Source of the DNA: Euonymus europaeus
Lineage: Eukaryota; Streptophyta; Magnoliopsida; Celastrales; Celastraceae
Direction of reading: 5' to 3'
Assembly (NCBI GenBank): GCA_963580455.1
Contig: OY756964.1
Location: 5,146,001 to 5,210,000, forward strand
DNA: 64,000 nucleotides
In this document: one piece after another, positions 29,521-59,649 of the stretch
Layout: each line of letters opens with the position of its first letter
Numbering within the stretch: the first letter of the stretch is position 1
Made by a program: the position numbers and the translations under genes
Notes under the pieces: model-generated
Database searches by the model: none
What the model was told of the DNA's origin: nothing
What the model saw: the letters and a program-made list of their open reading frames with translations, nothing else

Positions 29521-29708
29521 TGTGGGGCCCACTATCCTGGTGGGGCCCACTTATCCTCCTGTGGGCCCACTATCCTTGTGGGGCCCACCTATCCTCTCGT
29601 GGGGCCCACTATCCTGGTGGGTCCCACTTTTTCCTCTCGTGGGGCCCACTATCCTGGTGGGTCCCACTTATCCTTTTGTGGGGCCCACATCCATTGGTGG
29701 GGCCCACC
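29521..29708 (+). repeat. Minisatellite of GTGGGGCCCAC units (about 10 copies)
   Basis: About ten units of 17-22 bp, each with a near-palindromic GTGGGGCCCAC core (sometimes GTGGGTCCCAC) and a CTATCCTG-like spacer. The core holds the GGNCCCAC/GTGGNCCC consensus of TCP-factor sites on both strands. It lies in the solo LTR downstream of the W-box cluster. Confidence 0.85.
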
Positions 29709-30666
29709 TTCTGATGTTTGCTTTTTTCTCGAGAGTCCGGATAGGACTTCATTATGATGATCTTTTATGATTTGTGAAATTATGGAGGGATGATTTGTAG
29801 AGCGTGGGACCCACATCGGGCGACCCAGCTTACTGGATGATTTATCGATGGTTTCGATCGGGTACGTACCTGGAGACCGGATTGAGGTGAGGTACATCCT
29901 AGGGGACGCTCTTCGATGTAGGCGATGCTATCGAGTACCTGATGTAGGCTCGATCCTCATCCAATCTGGGGAGTACCTGGACTGGGAGACACCTTGCGGG
30001 GATCAGGGTGGGTCCAGGGGAGGATTTTCTGTTGTTATGTGGATTTGAGTTGATATGGATTTGAGTTTGATTATGGTTGAGTACTGATTTGAGAGTTGTA
30101 CTTGAGGATGGTAGTGGTGGAGCCTACTCGGCATCTACCATACGGATTGACTGATTGTGATGAGTTGTGATGTGTACCACTTATGATTTCTCTATATGTA
30201 TTCTATATCATACAGACTTTCTTACTTTATCTCTGATTTACTGGAGTTCGGTGATACGGGAGTGTATCACTATTTGAGTTTCCTGTTCATTTCACATACA
30301 TCTTGAGTTCTACATTCTGTTTATTCTGATTATTGATATTTCTCCATATCCCTACTGAGCTTTGTAGCTCATCCCTTTCATTCACATGTTTTTAGGTGAG
30401 ATAGCCGGAGTGGATGATCAGCGCAGGGATGCGTGAGGCGTGATGTAGCTGGTGGGAATGGTTTGTCTGTCTGTAGTATCTATGTTTTGTACGGTATTCC
30501 GTATCTATATGATATTCCGCTGTAGACTCTGGTTTGTATGTTACATTCCATTATGGCAGTATTTGGGATTTGGTTGAGACATATATATGTGAGATTACTT
30601 ATGTAGTGTTTGAATAGCTTGGGGTGTAAATCCGGTTCGGGGAACGGAGGAGTTCCCTGCCGATCA

Positions 30667-32506
30667 TGTCACGCCCCGATCCCCAGGCACGTGACGTGTA
30701 ACTATCTCATCCTCCCGACTAATTTTTTTTCAAATCTCAATAACTCAGTAAAAGTATAATTATCTACATACTTATATTTAGATGATAGATATAAATAAAT
30801 ACATAATAACTTATATACCCGACTGAGACTCCAGCTCAGCCACCCCAACCCACTGGGTCCACTCAACCCTTACGCAGCGACTTTGGTATGTACACCGACT
30901 GTCCTGTCCTGTCTGCACTCCCAGTCTCGTCACAGTTGTTTCACCTGAAAATAAACAATGGGAAATAGGGGATGAGCCGAAGCTCAGTAGGGAATACCGT
31001 ATTCACACGCAAAAACATCCAAAATAGTTATTGACAGAAGCACGACAATTTAAATAACACTTCTATTTATCAACCCGCCTCGAATATCCGTCACCACCTC
31101 GAACGCCTTCCGACCTCCTCGCCGGAAAATATTTTTCTCCGCTTTCCGACCTCCTCGCCGGAAGCAATCTACAAGTAAGGAAGGTAGGCACCTTCTTCTA
31201 CCCGGGACTTGCCACCCCTTCGCTATGTGGCCGCATAGCAAATCCTTACTCGGATTATCACCCACTGTACGTACAGGGTCATTTCCACATCACTTCAATC
31301 TCCACAATTTATATAAAACCACAGCATAAGCAAATATTCAATCTCATGCATACAGTAATAAAACATCAACTTTCTCAATGAAATGCAGGAGTACCGCATA
31401 ACAGAATCATCCACAATACCATTACCCGCAACTTCACAATAAAAAACCCAGACATTTAATCCCCCACAAATGCAATGCATTATGTCCCCACAAATGCAAT
31501 GCATTATGTTTACAGCAAGAATTTCCGTTTAAATATAACACAGAAACTCCAAAACCATGCAAGGGTTAAAGTATTCCCTACCTCGTGAAGCGTGCCTCAC
31601 ATCCCACTCGAACCAATGTTTTTCCGTATTTTCCCGACGTACACCATTTTGGTTCCTATACCAGTTCTACACCAAAGGCAAATCCAAGTTCTCAAATATG
31701 TTCAAAATCCGCGTAAATACGTAGTCTATACGATCTAGTCAAACGGGTATATTTTACCCGAAAAGTCAACTCGGGTCAAACGGGTCAAATAGTACCCGAA
31801 ATACCCCTATTCCGGGTTACCGAAGATCCGGCGACCTTCACCGGAAATCACCTAGTGGGTTTGGTAGTACTCACCAAGACGAACTCAACGGTGGTCGTCT
31901 CGTGTCGATCGGAGGTCGGAGGAGGGAGAAATCGACTGTCGAAGCTTGTGGTGGCCGAAACTTCCGACGGCTTTTCCCGGTGATCTACAGCTCCGATCAA
32001 GGTGATTCTTGAAGCAATTTCATACGTCTCGAAGAGACGAAGAGATTGACACCGGTCTCGTCGCCTGAAGTGGTCGGACGGCGGAGATCGGCGCCGGAGA
32101 AGTTCCGGACGCGGAAATGGAGTTTTTTTTCTTTTCTTTTTTTTTCTCTGTTTCGTTTCTTCCTGCTTCTTTTCTTCTTCTGTTCCGTTTCTTTCTTTCC
32201 TTTTTATTTGTTTCCTTCTCTCTCCAAGCTTCTAGCATTCTCTCTTCTTTTCCTTTTTATTTTATTTTATTTATATATGTATATATATATATGTATATGT
32301 ATATCTATTTTTATTTTATATTTTTATCATTGACTTACCTCTCATTTATCCTTTACTTTTATATGTCTATATATATATATATATATATATACTTTTGGAA
32401 TAAATTCTTTTAATCCGAATTTCATTTTCGGACTCCTCGGGGTACCATTGTACACGTGTCACTCTCCTATTCAATGTTTATATTATTTCCGGGTCGGGAT
32501 ACCACA
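30667..32506 (-). repeat. Array LTR 1 (outer, 3' LTR of the array)
   Basis: 1840 bp, TGTCACGCCCCG at the plus-strand left end and GGGATACCACA at the right. To its left is host solo-LTR DNA, not a primer-binding site, so this is the 3' terminal LTR of the minus-strand element. It contains a 24-bp tandem repeat (31462-31485 and 31486-31509), a duplicated TTCCGACCTCCTCGCCGGA block (about 31108-31162) and a TA microsatellite (about 32363-32391) whose length varies between LTRs. Confidence 0.92.
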
Positions 32507-34365
32507 TTCTCCCCTTCTTATAAAAATTTCGTCCTCGAAATTTAAATTCCCTCTCAATCTTCCTACCATTCCTTACCACATCAGTCAATTTTTCTCCACG
32601 GTGATTTTGTCACAGCATCTCTCCACTATACTTTTTATATAAAGTTTGGAAGCAACTCACATCCCGCGTTAATTCATGTTTGAATCCTCCCAACAATAAT
32701 TATTCCCCAAACACCGATGTCTTATTCCTAGAGCTCCTGAACTTATTTCTAGGGGTAAGTAAATCCAGAGTGTCCAGCAGGAAACAAGAGTTTCATACAT
32801 GCAACCACTGTTTTCCTTCCATGTTAACTAAGTTCAAACTCAAATGCACATGGAAAATCGAAAAAAAAAAAAACAACACAAGTCATATATACATAAAATC
32901 TCACACATGGTAAATCATCTGAATTATTCTTATCCGGAATCCACCATCCCGGCCACAAACATTTACTTACACGCACACAAGAATTGGTCATTAAATCTTA
33001 TTATACCAATATCGCAGTAGCCGCACTACCGTGTCAGGGCAATCTTAATTATCACGTGTGCACAATCACACCACATATTCCTCATCAACTCGTCTTACCA
33101 ACACCTTCTACTGCACGGTATATCAGTGAATAATCACCCTTTTGGTCACGGCCTACTAGTGGCCCCATCTCAAAGTCAACACATTTACATATCCCTTGTT
33201 CTTCTATAGTTGTTATAATAAGCGACGACAATTATCACCGCATCATGTAAATACTTGCCAGCCAACATAACCCTTTCAAACACAAATCCAACACAACATT
33301 TATGGAACTGATCAACTGGTTCCATTTAATCCCAAGTACATCCTTAGCAATATTCATCATGTGAAGTACATGTATCCTTTGGAGGTGCATATGCTCTACC
33401 ACTCACGACATATTGGTTCATCATTATGTTTTAAAGTTATTTCACACAGGTTCCACTCAATTCACTTAGCATAGGTTACACAATCAAGTTACCACACTTT
33501 TCAAATTCTCCAATATCATACAAGACAATCAACATTACCCGCACAACATAGGAGCCATCTAAGCTTTGAGATTATCACAAGTTTTATCACCCCTACTGCA
33601 TAGCGGAATAACAGCATCAAGGGTGCAAGCATAGCCATTATATCACAATTATTCACTTTTTTTTTTTTTTTTAACCCATACGTATCCAAGCATATACTAG
33701 TGTATCACATATGAGACCCATTTCATAAGGTACGAATATAATCATGGAAATTTGGTGCTCTCCACCCAAGCACGCACGACCAATCACACAACATTTCTAA
33801 GTCGGCTACCAACTCTGTAATTACACTAACACAAGGTAGCAATAGTTACATAACCCAAATACCCCTATAATCCGACCGAACTTCACAATCATAATACACA
33901 GTTACAATAGCTAGAATTTTGGATTATCTTAGGGTTATGGTATCTCCTCCTTCCACTTTAACCTAATAATGACGTAAATCGTCTGCCACGTATCTCGCAA
34001 GATAACATTTACTACCCCCTCACCCTTAGATACCTACACCCAACAACGCCATCCTGACACAACAGCACCATTATTTGATATTAACACTCCCCATGCCATT
34101 TTTTTTCTTGGCGTCCCCAGGTTTTTTTTTTTTTTTTTTCCTAAAACACTCCATCAATTATGGATCCCCGCAAGATAACGATCCCAACCGATTCTCGAGA
34201 TATGAGTCAAAATATTATCACCTCTTTGACTAAAGTATCTAAAGACTGACACAACAATTATGGGTAGACGAGCCAACCCTTATCGGTCTGGCCCCTCCAT
34301 CTGCTCGTAACGACACGTAATTCTTGAATAAATAATTCCATCCTTATCCGTTTATACTCTCATTC

Positions 34366-34373
34366 TATTTAAA
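34366..34373 (+). promoter_or_regulatory. TATA-like box ahead of the antisense ORF (copy 1)
   Basis: TATTTAAA on the plus strand, 70 bp upstream of the antisense ORF's ATG. It is followed by a CT-rich, leader-like segment (CTCTTTTCCCTCTCC just before the ATG). The spacing fits a short 5' leader. The same arrangement recurs in all four internal regions. Confidence 0.4.
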
Positions 34374-34443
34374 CCTCATTCAAGAAAAGCTCAACTTGTC
34401 TTCAGAGAATCTACTATCATTGTTCTCTTTTCCCTCTCCTTAA

Positions 34444-34737
34444 ATGGATACGCACTCTCATGCTAACTCTTCCAACATACTCCAAGAGTTGGAAGAGGTT
34501 CAGAGGCAACTCCAAGACGTTGAGAGGTTATATGGTCAAATCATAGCCAAACTCGACTCCATAATCCTGCTAACAGCACCACCAAAGGACAGTGAGGATG
34601 CTGCCTTGGCCACAACCAGTCTAAACAACGACTCTGTTGACCTATACAACACTGACTCCGACTACCCTCTGGGGTCGCTCCCTCGTACCGAGCCATACAG
34701 CACGGAGGAATGGGCTGGATGGTTCGACCACTGCTAG
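34444..34737 (+). CDS. Antisense accessory ORF of the retroelement, copy 1
   Basis: 97 residues, encoded against the direction of the element in the half nearer its 3' LTR. Residues about 10-40 are predicted by eye to form a coiled coil (ILQELEEVQRQLQDVERLY, regular Leu/Val spacing). A Ser/Asp-rich acidic middle follows (about 50-75), then a short Trp-containing end (EEWAGWFDHC). No signal peptide or membrane segment. I recognise no family. Antisense ORFs near the 3' LTR are known from several plant gypsy elements, with unclear function. The ORF is the same in all four copies, but because the copies are almost identical throughout, this does not prove selection. Confidence 0.45.
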   Translation: MDTHSHANSSNILQELEEVQRQLQDVERLYGQIIAKLDSIILLTAPPKDSEDAALATTSLNNDSVDLYNTDSDYPLGSLPRTEPYSTEEWAGWFDHC

Positions 34738-37305
34738 GTAGTACCAATAGCATACCTACTAGTATGTCCTCGTCTCAGTTTCTACTATTTCCTACTGTCT
34801 ATGTACAATTGTGTTAACCGTACTCATTCCCTCAATCTACCATTGTAATATCCCCTGCTTGTTAGCGTTAAAGGCTATCCAAATATACCATGTATAATAG
34901 TCCCCTTTTTGTATAATATCCTCCAATGTAAAATATTTCTCAATCCCCTTTTTTTTTCTTTTCTTCCTTCATGTACACTCTGTAACACAAACATTTCCAA
35001 TGAGATCAACGTCATCACAATCGCCAACTCTCAACCATCAATTATCCCCAGAAGTTTGGTGCCAATATCTCCCAATATATATATATAGCGATTCCAATTT
35101 ACATAAGTACAAAGCTAAGGTCTCATTACTCCAATATATATCACCTGAGATTTACATGCTTAAGATCCAATTTTACGAACCAATTTCAACCTCAAATGTC
35201 ACAAGTGGTTTAATTGGAACCACACTCTTAATCGGCAAGTACTAATCGAAACCACATGAACATTCATACAATAACCCCAAATCATGCAGAGAGTGTTTCA
35301 ATATATCACAGAGTTGTATTATAACCCAGCCTTGATTATAACACAACTAAAGCAACGCTTCCTCCATTACCTCTTATTGGTCGAAATCAATTTCTGAGTA
35401 CATCTTAATCACTAGACATTCCATCATATGGTCTCGGCAAATCAATACTCAACTTACTGTATCAATAGCAACCACAATTGTAGTTACTACAATTCAGATT
35501 ATCAAGCACAGAGTTACAAATTAAAGAACACCATTCCAACAATTTCTAGCCAAACATTTTAATTGATAACATACTATTATATCCACCCAAATTCTCGTTT
35601 TGTCATAAATCACTTTTTAGACAACCCAATTTCCAAACACTCAGACCTACCACTTGCCCCCAACATCATAACCATAACTTCTCATCACCCGGCATGACAC
35701 TGCTACCCGTAGTTCGGCAACCATTTCATAGTATACCATGTCGCATCAGTAGTTCCAATTATATCCTAATATGTCCACTCACACAAATTGAGCTTCAACC
35801 ATCAACCGTAAGTTCCATTATTTCCATCGGCAACTAACAACACAAATGGACAAGCAAAATCATAAATCCCAATTTACGCACAGAATATGGTACCACTTTA
35901 GCCCCCTTTTTGACAACAATTCAACTACTCAAATACCCAGAAATGGTTTGTCCATAGTTCTTATTAATGCCCAGTCACGAATAAGAATGCTTGATCACAC
36001 CATGAATTCAACGTATTACATATTTAACCAAAGCAAGCTACACGTTAGTCCAAATTCTACACTCATTTCACAAGAAATTTGACCCTGCACCATCAAACAA
36101 GAATAACTCAAAATCTCGCTGGTTTCATCTGATCACAGTTATAGCACAACAAAGTATAAATTCTATCTTCCCAACTTGCTAAAGTCAGGATATTTCTTAC
36201 AAGGACAATCAATTTACCCAACCATCAAATTCTTTTACTACAAGAATCTTCACTCCTCCCACTAAAAATTTCATCCCACCTTGGAGATTTTTTTTTTAAT
36301 AATTATGATTGTCGCCTCAACCCGCTAAAAGGCCCTTCAACGGATTACAATTCACACTGTAATTAATCCAAACCAAGGATGGTACACTTAGTATCTCAAT
36401 CATTACAAAACCACTATAATCGTCAGAATTATTGTTACCTACCATACTCACTTTAATTATTATAACATGCAGTTCACAATTAACATGCCATTTTAGTGTT
36501 GATTAATATCACACAATTATAAGCACTGGGATTCCAGTTAACCCCAAGGAAAGATTCACAGGGTCATCCAACACCCTCCCAGGTTATTCACAATTATAGT
36601 ATTCACTACAATTTCATATCCCTCTAATACACCACGTAGCCATAAACTAACCTACAGAGTATACGCAGAAACTTATCGGCACCCTACTTTCCTAATACAA
36701 ACCATCACCTCTCGTCACCTTCCTCTTTCTCACGTAATTCCACCCAATTCCACAATCAATTTTCATATAATAACCACCGGCATAGCATGTAAAGAACACA
36801 ACCCCATTGTCAAGTTGATTAAAACTGCAATTCATAAATTTAAATACCACCAGATTTATTTCCAAAATAATCACAAAAGTATGAGACTCTTCACCAGTCA
36901 CACAACGATTGACAAGTACCCCAGCTCTATTTATCAACAAGCCAACTATCAATTCACAATTCTTCATTAACATTTCAGCAGTAATTACGCAATTCAAAAT
37001 TTTCCAAGTAACTATGTCCGAAAATCAACAGAGTTATCACACTGTCGTATTCATCACATTTTCAAATCATTCCCGTACTCATGCTCATCTCCTTCCTATT
37101 TCTATCACTTTTTTTTTTCTTCCTTTAACTGATATATCGGTCATGCAACACTCACATGTCTGTCAATGAACTAACAAAGAACCTCTAAAATATATCTCAC
37201 ATGGTACTATGTGTACCTTCCCGATCGGCTGCGAGGCAGAAGACAGGTCCGGTGTACATACCCTCCATTCAGTCCTAACTCCAACCTACTGCTCTGATAC
37301 CACCT

Positions 37306-39147
37306 TGTCACGCCCCGATCCCCAGGCACGTGACGTGTAACTATCTCATCCTCCCGACTAATTTTTTTTCAAATCTCAATAACTCAGTAAAAGTATAATT
37401 ATCTACATACTTATATTTAGATGATAGATATAAATAAATACATAATAACTTATATACCCGACTGAGACTCCAGCTCAGCCACCCCAACCCACTGGGTCCA
37501 CTCAACCCTTACGCAGCGACTTTGGTATGTACACCGACTGTCCTGTCCTGTCTGCACTCCCAGTCTCGTCACAGTTGTTTCACCTGAAAATAAACAATGG
37601 GAAATAGGGGATGAGCCGAAGCTCAGTAGGGAATACCGTATTCACACGCAAAAACATCCAAAATAGTTATTGACAGAAGCACGACAATTTAAATAACACT
37701 TCTATTTATCAACCCGCCTCGAATATCCGTCACCACCTCGAACGCCTTCCGACCTCCTCGCCGGAAAATATTTTTCTCCGCTTTCCGACCTCCTCGCCGG
37801 AAGCAATCTACAAGTAAGGAAGGTAGGCACCTTCTTCTACCCGGGACTTGCCACCCCTTCGCTATGTGGCCGCATAGCAAATCCTTACTCGGATTATCAC
37901 CCACTGTACGTACAGGGTCATTTCCACATCACTTCAATCTCCACAATTTATATAAAACCACAGCATAAGCAAATATTCAATCTCATGCATACAGTAATAA
38001 AACATCAACTTTCTCAATGAAATGCAGGAGTACCGCATAACAGAATCATCCACAATACCATTACCCGCAACTTCACAATAAAAAACCCAGACATTTAATC
38101 CCCCACAAATGCAATGCATTATGTCCCCACAAATGCAATGCATTATGTTTACAGCAAGAATTTCCGTTTAAATATAACACAGAAACTCCAAAACCATGCA
38201 AGGGTTAAAGTATTCCCTACCTCGTGAAGCGTGCCTCACATCCCACTCGAACCAATGTTTTTCCGTATTTTCCCGACGTACACCATTTTGGTTCCTATAC
38301 CAGTTCTACACCAAAGGCAAATCCAAGTTCTCAAATATGTTCAAAATCCGCGTAAATACGTAGTCTATACGATCTAGTCAAACGGGTATATTTTACCCGA
38401 AAAGTCAACTCGGGTCAAACGGGTCAAATAGTACCCGAAATACCCCTATTCCGGGTTACCGAAGATCCGGCGACCTTCACCGGAAATCACCTAGTGGGTT
38501 TGGTAGTACTCACCAAGACGAACTCAACGGTGGTCGTCTCGTGTCGATCGGAGGTCGGAGGAGGGAGAAATCGACTGTCGAAGCTTGTGGTGGCCGAAAC
38601 TTCCGACGGCTTTTCCCGGTGATCTACAGCTCCGATCAAGGTGATTCTTGAAGCAATTTCATACGTCTCGAAGAGACGAAGAGATTGACACCGGTCTCGT
38701 CGCCTGAAGTGGTCGGACGGCGGAGATCGGCGCCGGAGAAGTTCCGGACGCGGAAATGGAGTTTTTTTTCTTTTCTTTTTTTTTCTCTGTTTCGTTTCTT
38801 CCTGCTTCTTTTCTTCTTCTGTTCCGTTTCTTTCTTTCCTTTTTATTTGTTTCCTTCTCTCTCCAAGCTTCTAGCATTCTCTCTTCTTTTCCTTTTTATT
38901 TTATTTTATTTATATATGTATATATATATATGTATATGTATATCTATTTTTATTTTATATTTTTATCATTGACTTACCTCTCATTTATCCTTTACTTTTA
39001 TATGTCTATATATATATATATATATATATATACTTTTGGAATAAATTCTTTTAATCCGAATTTCATTTTCGGACTCCTCGGGGTACCATTGTACACGTGT
39101 CACTCTCCTATTCAATGTTTATATTATTTCCGGGTCGGGATACCACA
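37306..39147 (-). repeat. Array LTR 2
   Basis: 1842 bp, 2 bp longer than LTR 1 through the TA microsatellite. It serves at once as 5' LTR for internal region 1 (primer-binding site on its left) and 3' LTR for internal region 2 (purine tract on its right). The longer TA tract removes a stop, so an incidental 175-codon frame spans 38756-39283 here and in no other copy. Confidence 0.92.
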
Positions 39148-42100
39148 TTCTCCCCTTCTTATAAAAATTTCGTCCTCGAAATTTAAATTCCCTCTCAATC
39201 TTCCTACCATTCCTTACCACATCAGTCAATTTTTCTCCACGGTGATTTTGTCACAGCATCTCTCCACTATACTTTTTATATAAAGTTTGGAAGCAACTCA
39301 CATCCCGCGTTAATTCATGTTTGAATCCTCCCAACAATAATTATTCCCCAAACACCGATGTCTTATTCCTAGAGCTCCTGAACTTATTTCTAGGGGTAAG
39401 TAAATCCAGAGTGTCCAGCAGGAAACAAGAGTTTCATACATGCAACCACTGTTTTCCTTCCATGTTAACTAAGTTCAAACTCAAATGCACATGGAAAATC
39501 GAAAAAAAAAAAAACAACACAAGTCATATATACATAAAATCTCACACATGGTAAATCATCTGAATTATTCTTATCCGGAATCCACCATCCCGGCCACAAA
39601 CATTTACTTACACGCACACAAGAATTGGTCATTAAATCTTATTATACCAATATCGCAGTAGCCGCACTACCGTGTCAGGGCAATCTTAATTATCACGTGT
39701 GCACAATCACACCACATATTCCTCATCAACTCGTCTTACCAACACCTTCTACTGCACGGTATATCAGTGAATAATCACCCTTTTGGTCACGGCCTACTAG
39801 TGGCCCCATCTCAAAGTCAACACATTTACATATCCCTTGTTCTTCTATAGTTGTTATAATAAGCGACGACAATTATCACCGCATCATGTAAATACTTGCC
39901 AGCCAACATAACCCTTTCAAACACAAATCCAACACAACATTTATGGAACTGATCAACTGGTTCCATTTAATCCCAAGTACATCCTTAGCAATATTCATCA
40001 TGTGAAGTACATGTATCCTTTGGAGGTGCATATGCTCTACCACTCACGACATATTGGTTCATCATTATGTTTTAAAGTTATTTCACACAGGTTCCACTCA
40101 ATTCACTTAGCATAGGTTACACAATCAAGTTACCACACTTTTCAAATTCTCCAATATCATACAAGACAATCAACATTACCCGCACAACATAGGAGCCATC
40201 TAAGCTTTGAGATTATCACAAGTTTTATCACCCCTACTGCATAGCGGAATAACAGCATCAAGGGTGCAAGCATAGCCATTATATCACAATTATTCACTTT
40301 TTTTTTTTTTTTTTTAACCCATACGTATCCAAGCATATACTAGTGTATCACATATGAGACCCATTTCATAAGGTACGAATATAATCATGGAAATTTGGTG
40401 CTCTCCACCCAAGCACGCACGACCAATCACACAACATTTCTAAGTCGGCTACCAACTCTGTAATTACACTAACACAAGGTAGCAATAGTTACATAACCCA
40501 AATACCCCTATAATCCGACCGAACTTCACAATCATAATACACAGTTACAATAGCTAGAATTTTGGATTATCTTAGGGTTATGGTATCTCCTCCTTCCACT
40601 TTAACCTAATAATGACGTAAATCGTCTGCCACGTATCTCGCAAGATAACATTTACTACCCCCTCACCCTTAGATACCTACACCCAACAACGCCATCCTGA
40701 CACAACAGCACCATTATTTGATATTAACACTCCCCATGCCATTTTTTTTCTTGGCGTCCCCAGGTTTTTTTTTTTTTTTTTTTCCTAAAACACTCCATCA
40801 ATTATGGATCCCCGCAAGATAACGATCCCAACCGATTCTCGAGATATGAGTCAAAATATTATCACCTCTTTGACTAAAGTATCTAAAGACTGACACAACA
40901 ATTATGGGTAGACGAGCCAACCCTTATCGGTCTGGCCCCTCCATCTGCTCGTAACGACACGTAATTCTTGAATAAATAATTCCATCCTTATCCGTTTATA
41001 CTCTCATTCTATTTAAACCTCATTCAAGAAAAGCTCAACTTGTCTTCAGAGAATCTACTATCATTGTTCTCTTTTCCCTCTCCTTAAATGGATACGCACT
41101 CTCATGCTAACTCTTCCAACATACTCCAAGAGTTGGAAGAGGTTCAGAGGCAACTCCAAGACGTTGAGAGGTTATATGGTCAAATCATAGCCAAACTCGA
41201 CTCCATAATCCTGCTAACAGCACCACCAAAGGACAGTGAGGATGCTGCCTTGGCCACAACCAGTCTAAACAACGACTCTGTTGACCTATACAACACTGAC
41301 TCCGACTACCCTCTGGGGTCGCTCCCTCGTACCGAGCCATACAGCACGGAGGAATGGGCTGGATGGTTCGACCACTGCTAGGTAGTACCAATAGCATACC
41401 TACTAGTATGTCCTCGTCTCAGTTTCTACTATTTCCTACTGTCTATGTACAATTGTGTTAACCGTACTCATTCCCTCAATCTACCATTGTAATATCCCCT
41501 GCTTGTTAGCGTTAAAGGCTATCCAAATATACCATGTATAATAGTCCCCTTTTTGTATAATATCCTCCAATGTAAAATATTTCTCAATCCCCTTTTTTTT
41601 TCTTTTCTTCCTTCATGTACACTCTGTAACACAAACATTTCCAATGAGATCAACGTCATCACAATCGCCAACTCTCAACCATCAATTATCCCCAGAAGTT
41701 TGGTGCCAATATCTCCCAATATATATATATAGCGATTCCAATTTACATAAGTACAAAGCTAAGGTCTCATTACTCCAATATATATCACCTGAGATTTACA
41801 TGCTTAAGATCCAATTTTACGAACCAATTTCAACCTCAAATGTCACAAGTGGTTTAATTGGAACCACACTCTTAATCGGCAAGTACTAATCGAAACCACA
41901 TGAACATTCATACAATAACCCCAAATCATGCAGAGAGTGTTTCAATATATCACAGAGTTGTATTATAACCCAGCCTTGATTATAACACAACTAAAGCAAC
42001 GCTTCCTCCATTACCTCTTATTGGTCGAAATCAATTTCTGAGTACATCTTAATCACTAGACATTCCATCATATGGTCTCGGCAAATCAATACTCAACTTA

Positions 42101-45787: not shown

Positions 45788-48700
45788 TTCTCCCCTTCTT
45801 ATAAAAATTTCGTCCTCGAAATTTAAATTCCCTCTCAATCTTCCTACCATTCCTTACCACATCAGTCAATTTTTCTCCACGGTGATTTTGTCACAGCATC
45901 TCTCCACTATACTTTTTATATAAAGTTTGGAAGCAACTCACATCCCGCGTTAATTCATGTTTGAATCCTCCCAACAATAATTATTCCCCAAACACCGATG
46001 TCTTATTCCTAGAGCTCCTGAACTTATTTCTAGGGGTAAGTAAATCCAGAGTGTCCAGCAGGAAACAAGAGTTTCATACATGCAACCACTGTTTTCCTTC
46101 CATGTTAACTAAGTTCAAACTCAAATGCACATGGAAAATCGAAAAAAAAAAAAACAACACAAGTCATATATACATAAAATCTCACACATGGTAAATCATC
46201 TGAATTATTCTTATCCGGAATCCACCATCCCGGCCACAAACATTTACTTACACGCACACAAGAATTGGTCATTAAATCTTATTATACCAATATCGCAGTA
46301 GCCGCACTACCGTGTCAGGGCAATCTTAATTATCACGTGTGCACAATCACACCACATATTCCTCATCAACTCGTCTTACCAACACCTTCTACTGCACGGT
46401 ATATCAGTGAATAATCACCCTTTTGGTCACGGCCTACTAGTGGCCCCATCTCAAAGTCAACACATTTACATATCCCTTGTTCTTCTATAGTTGTTATAAT
46501 AAGCGACGACAATTATCACCGCATCATGTAAATACTTGCCAGCCAACATAACCCTTTCAAACACAAATCCAACACAACATTTATGGAACTGATCAACTGG
46601 TTCCATTTAATCCCAAGTACATCCTTAGCAATATTCATCATGTGAAGTACATGTATCCTTTGGAGGTGCATATGCTCTACCACTCACGACATATTGGTTC
46701 ATCATTATGTTTTAAAGTTATTTCACACAGGTTCCACTCAATTCACTTAGCATAGGTTACACAATCAAGTTACCACACTTTTCAAATTCTCCAATATCAT
46801 ACAAGACAATCAACATTACCCGCACAACATAGGAGCCATCTAAGCTTTGAGATTATCACAAGTTTTATCACCCCTACTGCATAGCGGAATAACAGCATCA
46901 AGGGTGCAAGCATAGCCATTATATCACAATTATTCACTTTTTTTTTTTTTTTTTTAACCCATACGTATCCAAGCATATACTAGTGTATCACATATGAGAC
47001 CCATTTCATAAGGTACGAATATAATCATGGAAATTTGGTGCTCTCCACCCAAGCACGCACGACCAATCACACAACATTTCTAAGTCGGCTACCAACTCTG
47101 TAATTACACTAACACAAGGTAGCAATAGTTACATAACCCAAATACCCCTATAATCCGACCGAACTTCACAATCATAATACACAGTTACAATAGCTAGAAT
47201 TTTGGATTATCTTAGGGTTATGGTATCTCCTCCTTCCACTTTAACCTAATAATGACGTAAATCGTCTGCCACGTATCTCGCAAGATAACATTTACTACCC
47301 CCTCACCCTTAGATACCTACACCCAACAACGCCATCCTGACACAACAGCACCATTATTTGATATTAACACTCCCCATGCCATTTTTTTTCTTGGCGTCCC
47401 CAGGTTTTTTTTTTTTTTTTTTCCTAAAACACTCCATCAATTATGGATCCCCGCAAGATAACGATCCCAACCGATTCTCGAGATATGAGTCAAAATATTA
47501 TCACCTCTTTGACTAAAGTATCTAAAGACTGACACAACAATTATGGGTAGACGAGCCAACCCTTATCGGTCTGGCCCCTCCATCTGCTCGTAACGACACG
47601 TAATTCTTGAATAAATAATTCCATCCTTATCCGTTTATACTCTCATTCTATTTAAACCTCATTCAAGAAAAGCTCAACTTGTCTTCAGAGAATCTACTAT
47701 CATTGTTCTCTTTTCCCTCTCCTTAAATGGATACGCACTCTCATGCTAACTCTTCCAACATACTCCAAGAGTTGGAAGAGGTTCAGAGGCAACTCCAAGA
47801 CGTTGAGAGGTTATATGGTCAAATCATAGCCAAACTCGACTCCATAATCCTGCTAACAGCACCACCAAAGGACAGTGAGGATGCTGCCTTGGCCACAACC
47901 AGTCTAAACAACGACTCTGTTGACCTATACAACACTGACTCCGACTACCCTCTGGGGTCGCTCCCTCGTACCGAGCCATACAGCACGGAGGAATGGGCTG
48001 GATGGTTCGACCACTGCTAGGTAGTACCAATAGCATACCTACTAGTATGTCCTCGTCTCAGTTTCTACTATTTCCTACTGTCTATGTACAATTGTGTTAA
48101 CCGTACTCATTCCCTCAATCTACCATTGTAATATCCCCTGCTTGTTAGCGTTAAAGGCTATCCAAATATACCATGTATAATAGTCCCCTTTTTGTATAAT
48201 ATCCTCCAATGTAAAATATTTCTCAATCCCCTTTTTTTTTCTTTTCTTCCTTCATGTACACTCTGTAACACAAACATTTCCAATGAGATCAACGTCATCA
48301 CAATCGCCAACTCTCAACCATCAATTATCCCCAGAAGTTTGGTGCCAATATCTCCCAATATATATATATAGCGATTCCAATTTACATAAGTACAAAGCTA
48401 AGGTCTCATTACTCCAATATATATCACCTGAGATTTACATGCTTAAGATCCAATTTTACGAACCAATTTCAACCTCAAATGTCACAAGTGGTTTAATTGG
48501 AACCACACTCTTAATCGGCAAGTACTAATCGAAACCACATGAACATTCATACAATAACCCCAAATCATGCAGAGAGTGTTTCAATATATCACAGAGTTGT
48601 ATTATAACCCAGCCTTGATTATAACACAACTAAAGCAACGCTTCCTCCATTACCTCTTATTGGTCGAAATCAATTTCTGAGTACATCTTAATCACTAGAC

Positions 48701-50588
48701 ATTCCATCATATGGTCTCGGCAAATCAATACTCAACTTACTGTATCAATAGCAACCACAATTGTAGTTACTACAATTCAGATTATCAAGCACAGAGTTAC
48801 AAATTAAAGAACACCATTCCAACAATTTCTAGCCAAACATTTTAATTGATAACATACTATTATATCCACCCAAATTCTCGTTTTGTCATAAATCACTTTT
48901 TAGACAACCCAATTTCCAAACACTCAGACCTACCACTTGCCCCCAACATCATAACCATAACTTCTCATCACCCGGCATGACACTGCTACCCGTAGTTCGG
49001 CAACCATTTCATAGTATACCATGTCGCATCAGTAGTTCCAATTATATCCTAATATGTCCACTCACACAAATTGAGCTTCAACCATCAACCGTAAGTTCCA
49101 TTATTTCCATCGGCAACTAACAACACAAATGGACAAGCAAAATCATAAATCCCAATTTACGCACAGAATATGGTACCACTTTAGCCCCCTTTTTGACAAC
49201 AATTCAACTACTCAAATACCCAGAAATGGTTTGTCCATAGTTCTTATTAATGCCCAGTCACGAATAAGAATGCTTGATCACACCATGAATTCAACGTATT
49301 ACATATTTAACCAAAGCAAGCTACACGTTAGTCCAAATTCTACACTCATTTCACAAGAAATTTGACCCTGCACCATCAAACAAGAATAACTCAAAATCTC
49401 GCTGGTTTCATCTGATCACAGTTATAGCACAACAAAGTATAAATTCTATCTTCCCAACTTGCTAAAGTCAGGATATTTCTTACAAGGACAATCAATTTAC
49501 CCAACCATCAAATTCTTTTACTACAAGAATCTTCACTCCTCCCACTAAAAATTTCATCCCACCTTGGAGATTTTTTTTTTAATAATTATGATTGTCGCCT
49601 CAACCCGCTAAAAGGCCCTTCAACGGATTACAATTCACACTGTAATTAATCCAAACCAAGGATGGTACACTTAGTATCTCAATCATTACAAAACCACTAT
49701 AATCGTCAGAATTATTGTTACCTACCATACTCACTTTAATTATTATAACATGCAGTTCACAATTAACATGCCATTTTAGTGTTGATTAATATCACACAAT
49801 TATAAGCACTGGGATTCCAGTTAACCCCAAGGAAAGATTCACAGGGTCATCCAACACCCTCCCAGGTTATTCACAATTATAGTATTCACTACAATTTCAT
49901 ATCCCTCTAATACACCACGTAGCCATAAACTAACCTACAGAGTATACGCAGAAACTTATCGGCACCCTACTTTCCTAATACAAACCATCACCTCTCGTCA
50001 CCTTCCTCTTTCTCACGTAATTCCACCCAATTCCACAATCAATTTTCATATAATAACCACCGGCATAGCATGTAAAGAACACAACCCCATTGTCAAGTTG
50101 ATTAAAACTGCAATTCATAAATTTAAATACCACCAGATTTATTTCCAAAATAATCACAAAAGTATGAGACTCTTCACCAGTCACACAACGATTGACAAGT
50201 ACCCCAGCTCTATTTATCAACAAGCCAACTATCAATTCACAATTCTTCATTAACATTTCAGCAGTAATTACGCAATTCAAAATTTTCCAAGTAACTATGT
50301 CCGAAAATCAACAGAGTTATCACACTGTCGTATTCATCACATTTTCAAATCATTCCCGTACTCATGCTCATCTCCTTCCTATTTCTATCACTTTTTTTTT
50401 TCTTCCTTTAACTGATATATCGGTCATGCAACACTCACATGTCTGTCAATGAACTAACAAAGAACCTCTAAAATATATCTCACATGGTACTATGTGTACC
50501 TTCCCGATCGGCTGCGAGGCAGAAGACAGGTCCGGTGTACATACCCTCCATTCAGTCCTAACTCCAACCTACTGCTCTGATACCACCT
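45788..50588 (-). mobile_element. Array internal region 3
   Basis: 4801 bp. The purine tract is complement(45788..45800) and the primer-binding site complement(50574..50585). I saw no private base substitution; it differs from its neighbours only in homopolymer length. Confidence 0.88.
47727..48020 (+). CDS. Antisense accessory ORF of the retroelement, copy 3
   Basis: Same 97-residue product and upstream context as the other three copies. Intact. Function unknown. Confidence 0.45.
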   Translation: MDTHSHANSSNILQELEEVQRQLQDVERLYGQIIAKLDSIILLTAPPKDSEDAALATTSLNNDSVDLYNTDSDYPLGSLPRTEPYSTEEWAGWFDHC

Positions 50589-52426
50589 TGTCACGCCCCG
50601 ATCCCCAGGCACGTGACGTGTAACTATCTCATCCTCCCGACTAATTTTTTTTCAAATCTCAATAACTCAGTAAAAGTATAATTATCTACATACTTATATT
50701 TAGATGATAGATATAAATAAATACATAATAACTTATATACCCGACTGAGACTCCAGCTCAGCCACCCCAACCCACTGGGTCCACTCAACCCTTACGCAGC
50801 GACTTTGGTATGTACACCGACTGTCCTGTCCTGTCTGCACTCCCAGTCTCGTCACAGTTGTTTCACCTGAAAATAAACAATGGGAAATAGGGGATGAGCC
50901 GAAGCTCAGTAGGGAATACCGTATTCACACGCAAAAACATCCAAAATAGTTATTGACAGAAGCACGACAATTTAAATAACACTTCTATTTATCAACCCGC
51001 CTCGAATATCCGTCACCACCTCGAACGCCTTCCGACCTCCTCGCCGGAAAATATTTTTCTCCGCTTTCCGACCTCCTCGCCGGAAGCAATCTACAAGTAA
51101 GGAAGGTAGGCACCTTCTTCTACCCGGGACTTGCCACCCCTTCGCTATGTGGCCGCATAGCAAATCCTTACTCGGATTATCACCCACTGTACGTACAGGG
51201 TCATTTCCACATCACTTCAATCTCCACAATTTATATAAAACCACAGCATAAGCAAATATTCAATCTCATGCATACAGTAATAAAACATCAACTTTCTCAA
51301 TGAAATGCAGGAGTACCGCATAACAGAATCATCCACAATACCATTACCCGCAACTTCACAATAAAAAACCCAGACATTTAATCCCCCACAAATGCAATGC
51401 ATTATGTCCCCACAAATGCAATGCATTATGTTTACAGCAAGAATTTCCGTTTAAATATAACACAGAAACTCCAAAACCATGCAAGGGTTAAAGTATTCCC
51501 TACCTCGTGAAGCGTGCCTCACATCCCACTCGAACCAATGTTTTTCCGTATTTTCCCGACGTACACCATTTTGGTTCCTATACCAGTTCTACACCAAAGG
51601 CAAATCCAAGTTCTCAAATATGTTCAAAATCCGCGTAAATACGTAGTCTATACGATCTAGTCAAACGGGTATATTTTACCCGAAAAGTCAACTCGGGTCA
51701 AACGGGTCAAATAGTACCCGAAATACCCCTATTCCGGGTTACCGAAGATCCGGCGACCTTCACCGGAAATCACCTAGTGGGTTTGGTAGTACTCACCAAG
51801 ACGAACTCAACGGTGGTCGTCTCGTGTCGATCGGAGGTCGGAGGAGGGAGAAATCGACTGTCGAAGCTTGTGGTGGCCGAAACTTCCGACGGCTTTTCCC
51901 GGTGATCTACAGCTCCGATCAAGGTGATTCTTGAAGCAATTTCATACGTCTCGAAGAGACGAAGAGATTGACACCGGTCTCGTCGCCTGAAGTGGTCGGA
52001 CGGCGGAGATCGGCGCCGGAGAAGTTCCGGACGCGGAAATGGAGTTTTTTTTCTTTTCTTTTTTTTTCTCTGTTTCGTTTCTTCCTGCTTCTTTTCTTCT
52101 TCTGTTCCGTTTCTTTCTTTCCTTTTTATTTGTTTCCTTCTCTCTCCAAGCTTCTAGCATTCTCTCTTCTTTTCCTTTTTATTTTATTTTATTTATATAT
52201 GTATATATATATATGTATATGTATATCTATTTTTATTTTATATTTTTATCATTGACTTACCTCTCATTTATCCTTTACTTTTATATGTCTATATATATAT
52301 ATATATATATACTTTTGGAATAAATTCTTTTAATCCGAATTTCATTTTCGGACTCCTCGGGGTACCATTGTACACGTGTCACTCTCCTATTCAATGTTTA
52401 TATTATTTCCGGGTCGGGATACCACA
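50589..52426 (-). repeat. Array LTR 4
   Basis: 1838 bp, the same TA-tract length as LTR 3. That is compatible with LTR 3 and LTR 4 being the most recently separated pair. It keeps the primer-binding site on its left and the purine tract on its right. Confidence 0.92.
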
Positions 52427-55400
52427 TTCTCCCCTTCTTATAAAAATTTCGTCCTCGAAATTTAAATTCCCTCTCAATCTTCCTACCATTCCTTACCACA
52501 TCAGTCAATTTTTCTCCACGGTGATTTTGTCACAGCATCTCTCCACTATACTTTTTATATAAAGTTTGGAAGCAACTCACATCCCGCGTTAATTCATGTT
52601 TGAATCCTCCCAACAATAATTATTCCCCAAACACCGATGTCTTATTCCTAGAGCTCCTGAACTTATTTCTAGGGGTAAGTAAATCCAGAGTGTCCAGCAG
52701 GAAACAAGAGTTTCATACATGCAACCACTGTTTTCCTTCCATGTTAACTAAGTTCAAACTCAAATGCACATGGAAAATCGAAAAAAAAAAAACAACACAA
52801 GTCATATATACATAAAATCTCACACATGGTAAATCATCTGAATTATTCTTATCCGGAATCCACCATCCCGGCCACAAACATTTACTTACACGCACACAAG
52901 AATTGGTCATTAAATCTTATTATACCAATATCGCAGTAGCCGCACTACCGTGTCAGGGCAATCTTAATTATCACGTGTGCACAATCACACCACATATTCC
53001 TCATCAACTCGTCTTACCAACACCTTCTACTGCACGGTATATCAGTGAATAATCACCCTTTTGGTCACGGCCTACTAGTGGCCCCATCTCAAAGTCAACA
53101 CATTTACATATCCCTTGTTCTTCTATAGTTGTTATAATAAGCGACGACAATTATCACCGCATCATGTAAATACTTGCCAGCCAACATAACCCTTTCAAAC
53201 ACAAATCCAACACAACATTTATGGAACTGATCAACTGGTTCCATTTAATCCCAAGTACATCCTTAGCAATATTCATCATGTGAAGTACATGTATCCTTTG
53301 GAGGTGCATATGCTCTACCACTCACGACATATTGGTTCATCATTATGTTTTAAAGTTATTTCACACAGGTTCCACTCAATTCACTTAGCATAGGTTACAC
53401 AATCAAGTTACCACACTTTTCAAATTCTCCAATATCATACAAGACAATCAACATTACCCGCACAACATAGGAGCCATCTAAGCTTTGAGATTATCACAAG
53501 TTTTATCACCCCTACTGCATAGCGGAATAACAGCATCAAGGGTGCAAGCATAGCCATTATATCACAATTATTCACTTTTTTTTTTTTTTTTTTAACCCAT
53601 ACGTATCCAAGCATATACTAGTGTATCACATATGAGACCCATTTCATAAGGTACGAATATAATCATGGAAATTTGGTGCTCTCCACCCAAGCACGCACGA
53701 CCAATCACACAACATTTCTAAGTCGGCTACCAACTCTGTAATTACACTAACACAAGGTAGCAATAGTTACATAACCCAAATACCCCTATAATCCGACCGA
53801 ACTTCACAATCATAATACACAGTTACAATAGCTAGAATTTTGGATTATCTTAGGGTTATGGTATCTCCTCCTTCCACTTTAACCTAATAATGACGTAAAT
53901 CGTCTGCCACGTATCTCGCAAGATAACATTTACTACCCCCTCACCCTTAGATACCTACACCCAACAACGCCATCCTGACACAACAGCACCATTATTTGAT
54001 ATTAACACTCCCCATGCCATTTTTTTTCTTGGCGTCCCCAGGTTTTTTTTTTTTTTTTTTCCTAAAACACTCCATCAATTATGGATCCCCGCAAGATAAC
54101 GATCCCAACCGATTCTCGAGATATGAGTCAAAATATTATCACCTCTTTGACTAAAGTATCTAAAGACTGACACAACAATTATGGGTAGACGAGCCAACCC
54201 TTATCGGTCTGGCCCCTCCATCTGCTCGTAACGACACGTAATTCTTGAATAAATAATTCCATCCTTATCCGTTTATACTCTCATTCTATTTAAACCTCAT
54301 TCAAGAAAAGCTCAACTTGTCTTCAGAGAATCTACTATCATTGTTCTCTTTTCCCTCTCCTTAAATGGATACGCACTCTCATGCTAACTCTTCCAACATA
54401 CTCCAAGAGTTGGAAGAGGTTCAGAGGCAACTCCAAGACGTTGAGAGGTTATATGGTCAAATCATAGCCAAACTCGACTCCATAATCCTGCTAACAGCAC
54501 CACCAAAGGACAGTGAGGATGCTGCCTTGGCCACAACCAGTCTAAACAACGACTCTGTTGACCTATACAACACTGACTCCGACTACCCTCTGGGGTCGCT
54601 CCCTCGTACCGAGCCATACAGCACGGAGGAATGGGCTGGATGGTTCGACCACTGCTAGGTAGTACCAATAGCATACCTACTAGTATGTCCTCGTCTCAGT
54701 TTCTACTATTTCCTACTGTCTATGTACAATTGTGTTAACCGTACTCATTCCCTCAATCTACCATTGTAATATCCCCTGCTTGTTAGCGTTAAAGGCTATC
54801 CAAATATACCATGTATAATAGTCCCCTTTTTGTATAATATCCTCCAATGTAAAATATTTCTCAATCCCCTTTTTTTTTCTTTTCTTCCTTCATGTACACT
54901 CTGTAACACAAACATTTCCAATGAGATCAACGTCATCACAATCGCCAACTCTCAACCATCAATTATCCCCAGAAGTTTGGTGCCAATATCTCCCAATATA
55001 TATATATAGCGATTCCAATTTACATAAGTACAAAGCTAAGGTCTCATTACTCCAATATATATCACCTGAGATTTACATGCTTAAGATCCAATTTTACGAA
55101 CCAATTTCAACCTCAAATGTCACAAGTGGTTTAATTGGAACCACACTCTTAATCGGCAAGTACTAATCGAAACCACATGAACATTCATACAATAACCCCA
55201 AATCATGCAGAGAGTGTTTCAATATATCACAGAGTTGTATTATAACCCAGCCTTGATTATAACACAACTAAAGCAACGCTTCCTCCATTACCTCTTATTG
55301 GTCGAAATCAATTTCTGAGTACATCTTAATCACTAGACATTCCATCATATGGTCTCGGCAAATCAATACTCAACTTACTGTATCAATAGCAACCACAATT

Positions 55401-57226
55401 GTAGTTACTACAATTCAGATTATCAAGCACAGAGTTACAAATTAAAGAACACCATTCCAACAATTTCTAGCCAAACATTTTAATTGATAACATACTATTA
55501 TATCCACCCAAATTCTCGTTTTGTCATAAATCACTTTTTAGACAACCCAATTTCCAAACACTCAGACCTACCACTTGCCCCCAACATCATAACCATAACT
55601 TCTCATCACCCGGCATGACACTGCTACCCGTAGTTCGGCAACCATTTCATAGTATACCATGTCGCATCAGTAGTTCCAATTATATCCTAATATGTCCACT
55701 CACACAAATTGAGCTTCAACCATCAACCGTAAGTTCCATTATTTCCATCGGCAACTAACAACACAAATGGACAAGCAAAATCATAAATCCCAATTTACGC
55801 ACAGAATATGGTACCACTTTAGCCCCCTTTTTGACAACAATTCAACTACTCAAATACCCAGAAATGGTTTGTCCATAGTTCTTATTAATGCCCAGTCACG
55901 AATAAGAATGCTTGATCACACCATGAATTCAACGTATTACATATTTAACCAAAGCAAGCTACACGTTAGTCCAAATTCTACACTCATTTCACAAGAAATT
56001 TGACCCTGCACCATCAAACAAGAATAACTCAAAATCTCGCTGGTTTCATCTGATCACAGTTATAGCACAACAAAGTATAAATTCTATCTTCCCAACTTGC
56101 TAAAGTCAGGATATTTCTTACAAGGACAATCAATTTACCCAACCATCAAATTCTTTTACTACAAGAATCTTCACTCCTCCCACTAAAAATTTCATCCCAC
56201 CTTGGAGATTTTTTTTTTAATAATTATGATTGTCGCCTCAACCCGCTAAAAGGCCCTTCAACGGATTACAATTCACACTGTAATTAATCCAAACCAAGGA
56301 TGGTACACTTAGTATCTCAATCATTACAAAACCACTATAATCGTCAGAATTATTGTTACCTACCATACTCACTTTAATTATTATAACATGCAGTTCACAA
56401 TTAACATGCCATTTTAGTGTTGATTAATATCACACAATTATAAGCACTGGGATTCCAGTTAACCCCAAGGAAAGATTCACAGGGTCATCCAACACCCTCC
56501 CAGGTTATTCACAATTATAGTATTCACTACAATTTCATATCCCTCTAATACACCACGTAGCCATAAACTAACCTACAGAGTATACGCAGAAACTTATCGG
56601 CACCCTACTTTCCTAATACAAACCATCACCTCTCGTCACCTTCCTCTTTCTCACGTAATTCCACCCAATTCCACAATCAATTTTCATATAATAACCACCG
56701 GCATAGCATGTAAAGAACACAACCCCATTGTCAAGTTGATTAAAACTGCAATTCATAAATTTAAATACCACCAGATTTATTTCCAAAATAATCACAAAAG
56801 TATGAGACTCTTCACCAGTCACACAACGATTGACAAGTACCCCAGCTCTATTTATCAACAAGCCAACTATCAATTCACAATTCTTCATTAACATTTCAGC
56901 AGTAATTACGCAATTCAAAATTTTCCAAGTAACTATGTCCGAAAATCAACAGAGTTATCACACTGTCGTATTCATCACATTTTCAAATCATTCCCGTACT
57001 CATGCTCATCTCCTTCCTATTTCTATCACTTTTTTTTTTCTTCCTTTAACTGATATATCGGTCATGCAACACTCACATGTCTGTCAATGAACTAACAAAG
57101 AACCTCTAAAATATATCTCACATGGTACTATGTGTACCTTCCCGATCGGCTGCGAGGCAGAAGACAGGTCCGGTGTACATACCCTCCATTCAGTCCTAAC
57201 TCCAACCTACTGCTCTGATACCACCT
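52427..57226 (-). mobile_element. Array internal region 4
   Basis: 4800 bp. The purine tract is complement(52427..52439) and the primer-binding site complement(57212..57223). One A-run (about 52781-52792) is one base shorter than in the other copies, which changes the end of an incidental plus-strand frame there. Confidence 0.88.
54365..54658 (+). CDS. Antisense accessory ORF of the retroelement, copy 4
   Basis: Same 97-residue product and upstream context as the other three copies. Intact. Function unknown. Confidence 0.45.
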   Translation: MDTHSHANSSNILQELEEVQRQLQDVERLYGQIIAKLDSIILLTAPPKDSEDAALATTSLNNDSVDLYNTDSDYPLGSLPRTEPYSTEEWAGWFDHC

Positions 57227-58923
57227 TGTCACGCCCCGATCCCCAGGCACGTGACGTGTAACTATCTCATCCTCCCGACTAATTTTTTTTCAAATCTCAA
57301 TAACTCAGTAAAAGTATAATTATCTACATACTTATATTTAGATGATAGATATAAATAAATACATAATAACTTATATACCCGACTGAGACTCCAGCTCAGC
57401 CACCCCAACCCACTGGGTCCACTCAACCCTTACGCAGCGACTTTGGTATGTACACCGACTGTCCTGTCCTGTCTGCACTCCCAGTCTCGTCACAGTTGTT
57501 TCACCTGAAAATAAACAATGGGAAATAGGGGATGAGCCGAAGCTCAGTAGGGAATACCGTATTCACACGCAAAAACATCCAAAATAGTTATTGACAGAAG
57601 CACGACAATTTAAATAACACTTTTATTTATCAACCCGCCTCGAATATCCGTCACCACCTCGAACGCCTTCCGACCTCCTCGCCGGAAAATATTTTTCTCC
57701 GCTTTCCGACCTCCTCGCCGGAAGCAATCTACAAGTAAGGAAGGTAGGCACCTTCTTCTACCCGGGACTTGCCACCCCTTCGCTATGTGGCCGCATAGCA
57801 AATCCTTACTCGGATTATCACCCACTGTACGTACAGGGTCATTTCCACATCACTTCAATCTCCACAATTTATATAAAACCACAGCATAAGCAAATATTCA
57901 ATCTCATGCATACAGTAATAAAACATCAACTTTCTCAATGAAATGCAGGAGTACCGCATAACAGAATCATCCACAATACCATTACCCGCAACTTCACAAT
58001 AAAAAACCCAGACATTTAATCCCCCACAAATGCAATGCATTATGTCCCCACAAATGCAATGCATTATGTTTACAGCAAGAATTTCCGTTTAAATATAACA
58101 CAGAAACTCCAAAACCATGCAAGGGTTAAAGTATTCCCTACCTCGTGAAGCGTGCCTCACATCCCACTCGAACCAATGTTTTTCCGTATTTTCCCGACGT
58201 ACACCATTTTGGTTCCTATACCAGTTCTACACCAAAGGCAAATCCAAGTTCTCAAATATGTTCAAAATCCGCGTAAATACGTAGTCTATACGATCTAGTC
58301 AAACGGGTATATTTTACCCGAAAAGTCAACTCGGGTCAAACGGGTCAAATAGTACCCGAAATACCCCTATTCCGGGTTACCGAAGATCCGGCGACCTTCA
58401 CCGGAAATCACCTAGTGGGTTTGGTAGTACTCACCAAGACGAACTCAACGGTGGTCGTCTCGTGTCGATCGGAGGTCGGAGGAGGGAGAAATCGACTGTC
58501 GAAGCTTGTGGTGGCCGAAACTTCCGACGGCTTTTCCCGGTGATCTACAGCTCCGATCAAGGTGATTCTTGAAGCAATTTCATACGTCTCGAAGAGACGA
58601 AGAGATTGACACCGGTCTCGTCGCCTGAAGTGGTCGGACGGCGGAGATCGGCGCCGGAGAAGTTCCGGACGCGGAAATGGAGTTTTTTTTCTTTTCTTTT
58701 TTTTTCTCTGTTTCGTTTCTTCCTGCTTCTTTTCTTCTTCTGTTCCGTTTCTTTCTTTCCTTTTTATTTGTTTCCTTCTCTCTCCAAGCTTCTAGCATTC
58801 TCTCTTCTTTTCCTTTTTATTTTATTTTATTTATATATGTATATATATATATGTATATGTATATCTATTTTTATTTTATATTTTTATCATTGACTTACCT
58901 CTCATTTATCCTTTACTTTTATA

Positions 58924-58956
<33 letters not shown>

Positions 58957-59070
58957 TTTTGGAATAAATTCTTTTAATCCGAATTTCATTTTCGGACTCC
59001 TCGGGGTACCATTGTACACGTGTCACTCTCCTATTCAATGTTTATATTATTTCCGGGTCGGGATACCACA
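57227..59070 (-). repeat. Array LTR 5 (outer, 5' LTR of the array)
   Basis: 1844 bp, the longest TA tract of the five. It has a private T at 57623 (C in the other four). A primer-binding site lies on its left, but on its right there is host solo-LTR DNA starting with the GATCA duplication instead of a purine tract. It is therefore the 5' terminal LTR of the minus-strand array. Apart from the TA tract and the one substitution I saw no difference from LTR 1, so the insertion is very young. Confidence 0.92.
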
Positions 59071-59649
59071 GATCACGTCTCTGGGATTCATGGGTGCTCA
59101 TCTGCACCTATCTGGGAGAGGGGCGTGACACAGTGTCACCTAGGTTTTTGGAGGTTTTAGGTGCTAGAACACTAGCTTCGATCATGCAACGGTTACCTGT
59201 TGTTCGAGTAATGGATCGAGCTAGAGATTTAAAGACGAATTAGATGAGCCAGAATCAGACGATTTCAATTTTTTAGGTTTAAAGAAAGAGAGGTGCAGGT
59301 TAGGGTCAGAGAAGAGGATGACACGTGTCATGCACCCATTCTTCAACATTTTGATTTTTGAAAATAAATAAATTTGGGTTTATTTTCATTTCCACGTGTA
59401 AATACGGGTTGGGGGTCAAAATGCCATGTCTGAATTTATGCTGCCCGAATTTATAGAAACCTGATCGAGTGATCGGACTGGAACAAATTCAAAAGTTGAG
59501 TAATCAAGTTGAGACATTTGAATTTTCGATGACCAAAATGAAACATGAGATATCTTTTGATGACTATAAATAACATTAACCCATTTTTTAGATAGTGACC
59601 ACGATCTTACGGGTGTTTTCATTGTTCTGGGACTAAAGGAGAAAGAATT

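Follow-up and report, generated by a model that had tools for sequence, protein, structure and literature searches.

A very young array of LTR-sharing units of a putative LARD-like retrotransposon with an antisense reading frame in the Euonymus europaeus assembly

How did a single locus come to hold four internal regions and five long terminal repeats (LTRs) of one retrotransposon? The question is raised by a 64-kb window of the Euonymus europaeus genome (the whole stretch of DNA analysed, C8:5146001-5210000 of a 443-Mb genome), in which a 28.4-kb block consists of five LTRs (1,838–1,844 bp) alternating with four internal regions (~4.8 kb), with an LTR at both ends (Table 1). The answer that we favour, with modest confidence, is that an element resembling the large retrotransposon derivatives (LARDs), carrying a conserved antisense open reading frame (ORF) of 97 amino acids (ORF97), was inserted once and was then enlarged by unequal recombination between its LTRs.

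Comparison of the window with itself by BLAST gave repeat shifts of 6,639, 13,283, 19,922 and 26,560 at identities of 99.7–99.9% with gaps counted; such identity across kilobases rules out chance repeats. Together with the reading of the junctions, it supported the LTRs that the initial annotation had placed at 30667, 37306, 43950, 50589 and 57227, and the internal regions between them. GATCA was present on both outer sides of the block, and no duplication of this type was found at the inner LTR junctions. The block interrupts an older 2.18-kb solo LTR, itself flanked by CAGTG. In all seven fetched relatives of this host LTR the site is uninterrupted, reading GGTCA where the array locus has GATCA; five of them match the host LTR from its start and two (L004 and L008) from further in. 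Because the relatives cross the site without a gap, we concluded that GATCA is one target-site duplication (TSD) of the whole array. The alternation of LTRs and internal regions and the lone TSD, with inner junctions free of duplication, agree with what had been annotated, namely a single GATCA duplication around the block and one integration site with shared LTRs. The presence of the array in the assembled sequence is confirmed, its unit count being that of the assembly.

The units have hardly diverged. Over 28,396 compared sites (5 × 1,840 + 4 × 4,799) only two substitutions were observed among all of them, one at position 397 of LTR 5 and the other in internal region 2; the remaining differences are lengths of homopolymers and of (TA)n (24, 26, 22, 22 and 28 bp). 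With assumed plant clocks of 7 × 10−9 and 1.3 × 10−8 per site and year and a star tree, the separation of the units dates back ~10 thousand years under the first clock and ~5 thousand under the second (outer 95% limits 0.7–36 thousand), and the very recent amplification proposed earlier is thus borne out. Between internal region 1 and the closest other copy among those scored, on C2, there are 13 substitutions over 4,788 sites; because only two were found among the units, we concluded that the units stem from one insertion. Nested independent insertions were ruled out, since there are no inner TSDs and the closest other copy is much farther from the units than they are from one another. On C2, three ORF97 loci (6345415, 6396654 and 6442589) lie within 100 kb, one of them being this closest copy.

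Unequal LTR–LTR exchange after a single insertion explains both the shared LTRs and the lone TSD. An ordinary two-LTR insertion, which a coding relative would have copied in trans, would have entered the older solo LTR and made the 5-bp duplication. Its LTRs, on sister chromatids or homologues, would then have recombined unequally and so enlarged it, the reciprocal exchange making an insertion smaller. Alternatively, and in our view less probably, the array may have been integrated ready-made, a multi-unit cDNA from a read-through transcript or a one-LTR circle having been joined by integrase. This unlikely course agrees with the single TSD and with the star pattern of the internal variants, and it is considered possible for plant tandems (PMC11899658) and for Cassandra (PMC7215508). 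However, a rapid series of crossovers yields the identical star pattern, a 28-kb cDNA would be long for a particle, and all three of the other LTR–internal–LTR copies examined are single-unit insertions (TSDs CCGCC, GTCCT and TATTA; 1, 0 and 17 substitutions between their paired LTRs). It is mainly because of the last two points that we favour exchange over a concatemer; the origin of plant tandems, by exchange or by multi-unit cDNA, is left open in PMC11899658.

Several observations weigh against enlargement by exchange. Every internal-region variant is private to one unit, which a concatemeric insertion would give likewise, and substitutions set apart only internal region 2 and LTR 5, the remainder differing by simple-repeat lengths; to this is added the dependence of the unit count on the assembly. 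When a portion of the internal region served as query (40 of 54 candidates scored), at least two further close copies came to light, C13:21521117 (97%) and C2:6441664 (95%), in addition to the three copies whose structure was examined. Nor do the unpaired LTR matches prove that solo LTRs are frequent. In the LTR search, where 40 of 462 candidates were scored and a partner was sought within 15 kb, the matches fell into the five LTRs of the array, three LTR pairs and 29 without a scored partner (29 of the 35 outside the array). Three of these 29 are copies in a 24.2-kb triplication, and five are not bare LTRs, because an ORF97 match lies within 5 kb of them.

The array could also be an assembly artefact with more or fewer units, reads having been chained through the near-identical LTRs. 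Its length and the near identity of its units would invite such an error, an LTR-to-LTR misjoin would mimic unequal crossover, and the assembly contains the near-exact 24.2-kb triplication elsewhere. We hold a miscount to be rather improbable, as LTR 5 and internal region 2 have private substitutions, the (TA)n lengths vary, and other loci of the group are similar in structure with different periods, though these would share any assembly fault. The triplication itself (G000:C5:7521802-7594533; L012–L017, L019, L021 and L022) runs head to tail, is 99.4–100% identical by piece and contains an LTR 82% similar to that of the array. As the repeat does not start at the LTR and is not bounded by LTRs, it was rejected as an LTR-sharing array; it reflects a segmental duplication of recent date or else an effect of the assembly.

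Tandem formation appears to be recurrent in the ORF97 group. Besides the array, two ORF97 copies lie 5.2–6.6 kb apart at three of 96 loci, on C10, C1 and C9. At C10:21692085-21707511, three 2,134-bp LTRs (0 or 1 difference) and two internal regions are flanked on both sides by ATCAG, so that this locus is a verified end-to-end LTR-sharing tandem with its TSD. At C1 and C9 a single LTR-like stretch (~0.96 and ~2.3 kb, respectively) separates two ORF97-bearing internal regions, and primer-site and polypurine-side motifs are in place; from the region seen, which excludes outer LTRs and TSDs, these look like LTR-sharing tandems. The C9 stretch has only short pieces in common with the array LTR and the C1 stretch none. 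The three loci thus suggest that tandems have formed repeatedly, in subfamilies whose LTRs are for the most part dissimilar.

What kind of element forms the array? The positions of the primer binding site TGGTATCAGAGC, which we take to be of the initiator Met tRNA type, and of the polypurine tract AAGAAGGGGAGAA place it on the minus strand. The ORF listing of unit 1 contained no long ORF. The unit has 17 internal ORFs with ≥65 amino acids, and a Pfam scan of six of them found no gag, pol or env domain, the sole match being a sub-threshold one to DUF3402. An autonomous element was ruled out on these grounds. A chromodomain-bearing integrase, by which Ty3/gypsy chromoviruses are recognised, was likewise not seen, as no pol was found in the element. 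Folding of the 60 nt surrounding the primer binding site gave nothing notable (z 1.45). The ends, the primer-site type and the polypurine-side AATTTCGAGGACGAAATT motif are common to the array element and to the coding family of the host LTR, whose members carry gag, aspartic protease and SH3_Tf2-1 above the cut-off (integrase-end domains), with Chromo just under it (24.1 versus 25.1 bits). These shared features make a member of the coding lineage a plausible helper in the movement of the element. Judged by its sequence, the element is probably non-autonomous and LARD-like, with Ty3/gypsy-type ends. LARDs are defined as lacking protein-coding capacity, whereas each unit here holds the conserved ORF97 on the plus strand, antisense to the element. 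Terminal-repeat retrotransposons in miniature (TRIMs) are very small elements with short LTRs; the present unit measures 6.6 kb and its LTR 1.84 kb.

ORF97 is preceded by a TATA-type box. In all 30 loci L027–L056 (four are the array units, and some are near-identical), TATTTAAA starts 56–78 nt ahead of the ATG, and L057 has TATAAA; the four distant relatives miss the TATTTAAA search pattern and read TATATAA by eye. In the genome, ORF97 matches occur at 107 places (120 of 120 candidates scored), which form 96 loci by 15-kb clustering. The frame is open (stop-free) in 66 of the 80 full-length matches, and in 53 of the 65 at 55–89% identity, whereas a neutral simulation would leave 26% open at 14% divergence (37% at 10%, 15% at 20%); nucleotide divergence, determined for 25 loci only, ranged from 1.4 to 16.5%. 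Among 16 distinct sequences of 30 fetched loci, the median ratio of nonsynonymous to synonymous substitution rates (dN/dS) was 0.34, 116 of 120 pairs were below 1, and each of the other five frames had at least one stop in all 16. In a set of 16 loci, the longest conserved stretch, ~34194–34893, takes in the region immediately upstream of ORF97.

The open frames at 55–89% identity, the low dN/dS and the box kept in all 30 close loci argue against ORF97 being a chance or decaying frame within plain non-coding LARD sequence, an explanation to which we give very little credence. It could draw on the stops in 14 of the 80 full-length matches, on a predicted structure of low overall confidence (a single long helix, 3–44; mean predicted local distance difference test, pLDDT, 70; predicted template-modelling score, pTM, 0.36) and on the searches: ORF97 had no match in PDB, one candidate and no match in a single-sequence search of a protein collection, and nothing above the shown cut-off in Pfam, where the weak matches (best E 0.00012) occurred in no more than 4 of 25 members. 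TRP28 (PF04195) was matched by none of the 25 members at E ≤ 0.01. The evidence for selection also has weak sides: the dN/dS loci are the best protein-search matches and hence biased to intact frames (2 of 16 hold stops), the pairs are not independent, selection may sit on master elements rather than on copies, and protein selection in an enzyme-borrowing element is hard to explain. From the codon pattern, we infer that ORF97 may make a small protein that is important for how the group spreads; our guess is that this protein is regulatory or acts bound to nucleic acid.

Distant relatives of ORF97, of 99 amino acids and 33–37% identity, were observed at four loci (L059–L062; C9:4466831, C1:1853670, C7:16397296 and C2:21165870) downstream of a gag-like ORF on the same strand. 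The gag-like ORFs contain a zinc-knuckle-like stretch, and the two that were tested had no significant Pfam match. These gag-linked relatives are possibly the source of ORF97.

Next, we compared the array with known systems. Tandem LTR-retrotransposons are documented in rice, Arabidopsis, almond and cotton (Morales-Diaz et al. 2025, PMC11899658), and classes of them are given by LTRtype (PMC5379124). The initial annotation had regarded four internal regions as well beyond the two or three that are usual. This was not supported in that form: Arabidopsis has four complex elements with >3 LTRs (PMC5379124), and TRIM arrays reach seven LTRs in Wukong (PMC4528315) and 13 in Cassandra (PMC7215508). 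The array is therefore of a known kind, in which four units are large. It resembles the tandems of PMC11899658 and PMC5379124 in its alternating LTRs and internal regions, LTR ends, one short TSD and similar units, and one rice tandem (PMC11899658) in being nested in an older element. The two rice loci detailed in that study have two internal regions, whereas the array has four, and each of the 28 rice tandems curated there codes for retrotransposon domains, whereas gag and pol were not found here; the pipeline of that study includes a class without recognised domains. The TRIMs Cassandra (PMC7215508) and Wukong (PMC4528315) also form non-autonomous, LTR-sharing arrays but are miniature, in contrast to the unit described here with its long LTRs and antisense ORF. 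LARDs such as Sukkula (named in PMC7215508) are likewise non-autonomous and without gag, pol or env; the array element differs from them by its conserved ORF97 and TATA-type box.

Conserved ORFs antisense to the element are also present in Grande, RIRE2, Retand and PvRetro13 (PMC7264820 and PMC11963269), that of Grande being transcribed from its own upstream promoter. These ORFs sit between pol and the 3′ LTR, whereas around ORF97 gag and pol were not found; some Retand elements are also non-autonomous, and TRP28 (PF04195), which ORF97 does not match, is present in most Retand clusters. In the literature examined, a limited search met no group that lacks gag and pol and has a conserved antisense ORF of this kind, and we do not claim its absence.

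The array offers a clean, very young case of an LTR insertion enlarged rather than cut to a solo LTR. To the initial annotation, the analysis adds that the element runs on the minus strand, that gag and pol were not found, that ORF97 lies antisense to it, that the array is nested in a solo LTR and that three further loci are tandem-like. ORF97 poses the question of why purifying selection would preserve a protein in an element seemingly reliant on the enzymes of others, and the four identical antisense ORFs of the array make its dosage and transcription testable. As a speculation that we consider doubtful, a gag/pol-less group with unlike LTRs might be united by an antisense small-protein gene with its own promoter, kept by selection, whose product would act on element RNA or DNA or against silencing; arrays would multiply this gene.

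Table 1. Features of the array and its host LTR (positions in the window)
Feature	Position	Strand	Basis
CAGTG target duplication of host solo LTR, left copy	28535..28539	.	sequence reading
Host solo LTR, left part	28540..30666	+	86–90% match to L002–L008
GATCA target duplication of array, left copy	30662..30666	.	junction reading and relatives' intact site
LTR 1 (element's 3′ LTR)	30667..32506	-	self-BLAST, junctions
Internal region 1, gag/pol ORF not found	32507..37305	-	ORF listing, domain scan
Polypurine tract AAGAAGGGGAGAA	32507..32519	-	sequence reading
AATTTCGAGGACGAAATT motif near polypurine tract, common to coding host family	32525..32542	-	motif comparison
TATTTAAA TATA-type box, 78 nt before antisense ORF97	34366..34373	+	kept in 30/30 loci
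Antisense ORF97 copy 1	34444..34737	+	protein search, dN/dS, open-frame count
Primer binding site TGGTATCAGAGC, 3 nt from LTR	37291..37302	-	sequence reading
LTR 2	37306..39147	-	self-BLAST, junctions
Internal region 2, holds sole internal substitution	39148..43949	-	unit comparison
Antisense ORF97 copy 2	41088..41381	+	protein search
LTR 3	43950..45787	-	self-BLAST, junctions
Internal region 3	45788..50588	-	unit comparison
Antisense ORF97 copy 3	47727..48020	+	protein search
LTR 4	50589..52426	-	self-BLAST, junctions
Internal region 4	52427..57226	-	unit comparison
Antisense ORF97 copy 4	54365..54658	+	protein search
LTR 5 (element's 5′ LTR; sole LTR substitution)	57227..59070	-	self-BLAST, unit comparison
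GATCA target duplication of array, right copy	59071..59075	.	junction reading
Host solo LTR, right end	59076..59130	+	relatives' match, sequence reading
CAGTG target duplication of host solo LTR, right copy	59131..59135	.	sequence reading

The left part of the window has Pfam matches to NAM (NAC), glutaredoxin, pollen Ole e 1 and auxin-response families. The Ole e 1-type ORF (13818–14795) continues into a long proline-rich stretch, and internal DNA repeats were observed at 14391–15049. A pair of direct repeats of ~385 bp and 86% identity lies at 19946–20323 and 21991–22361.

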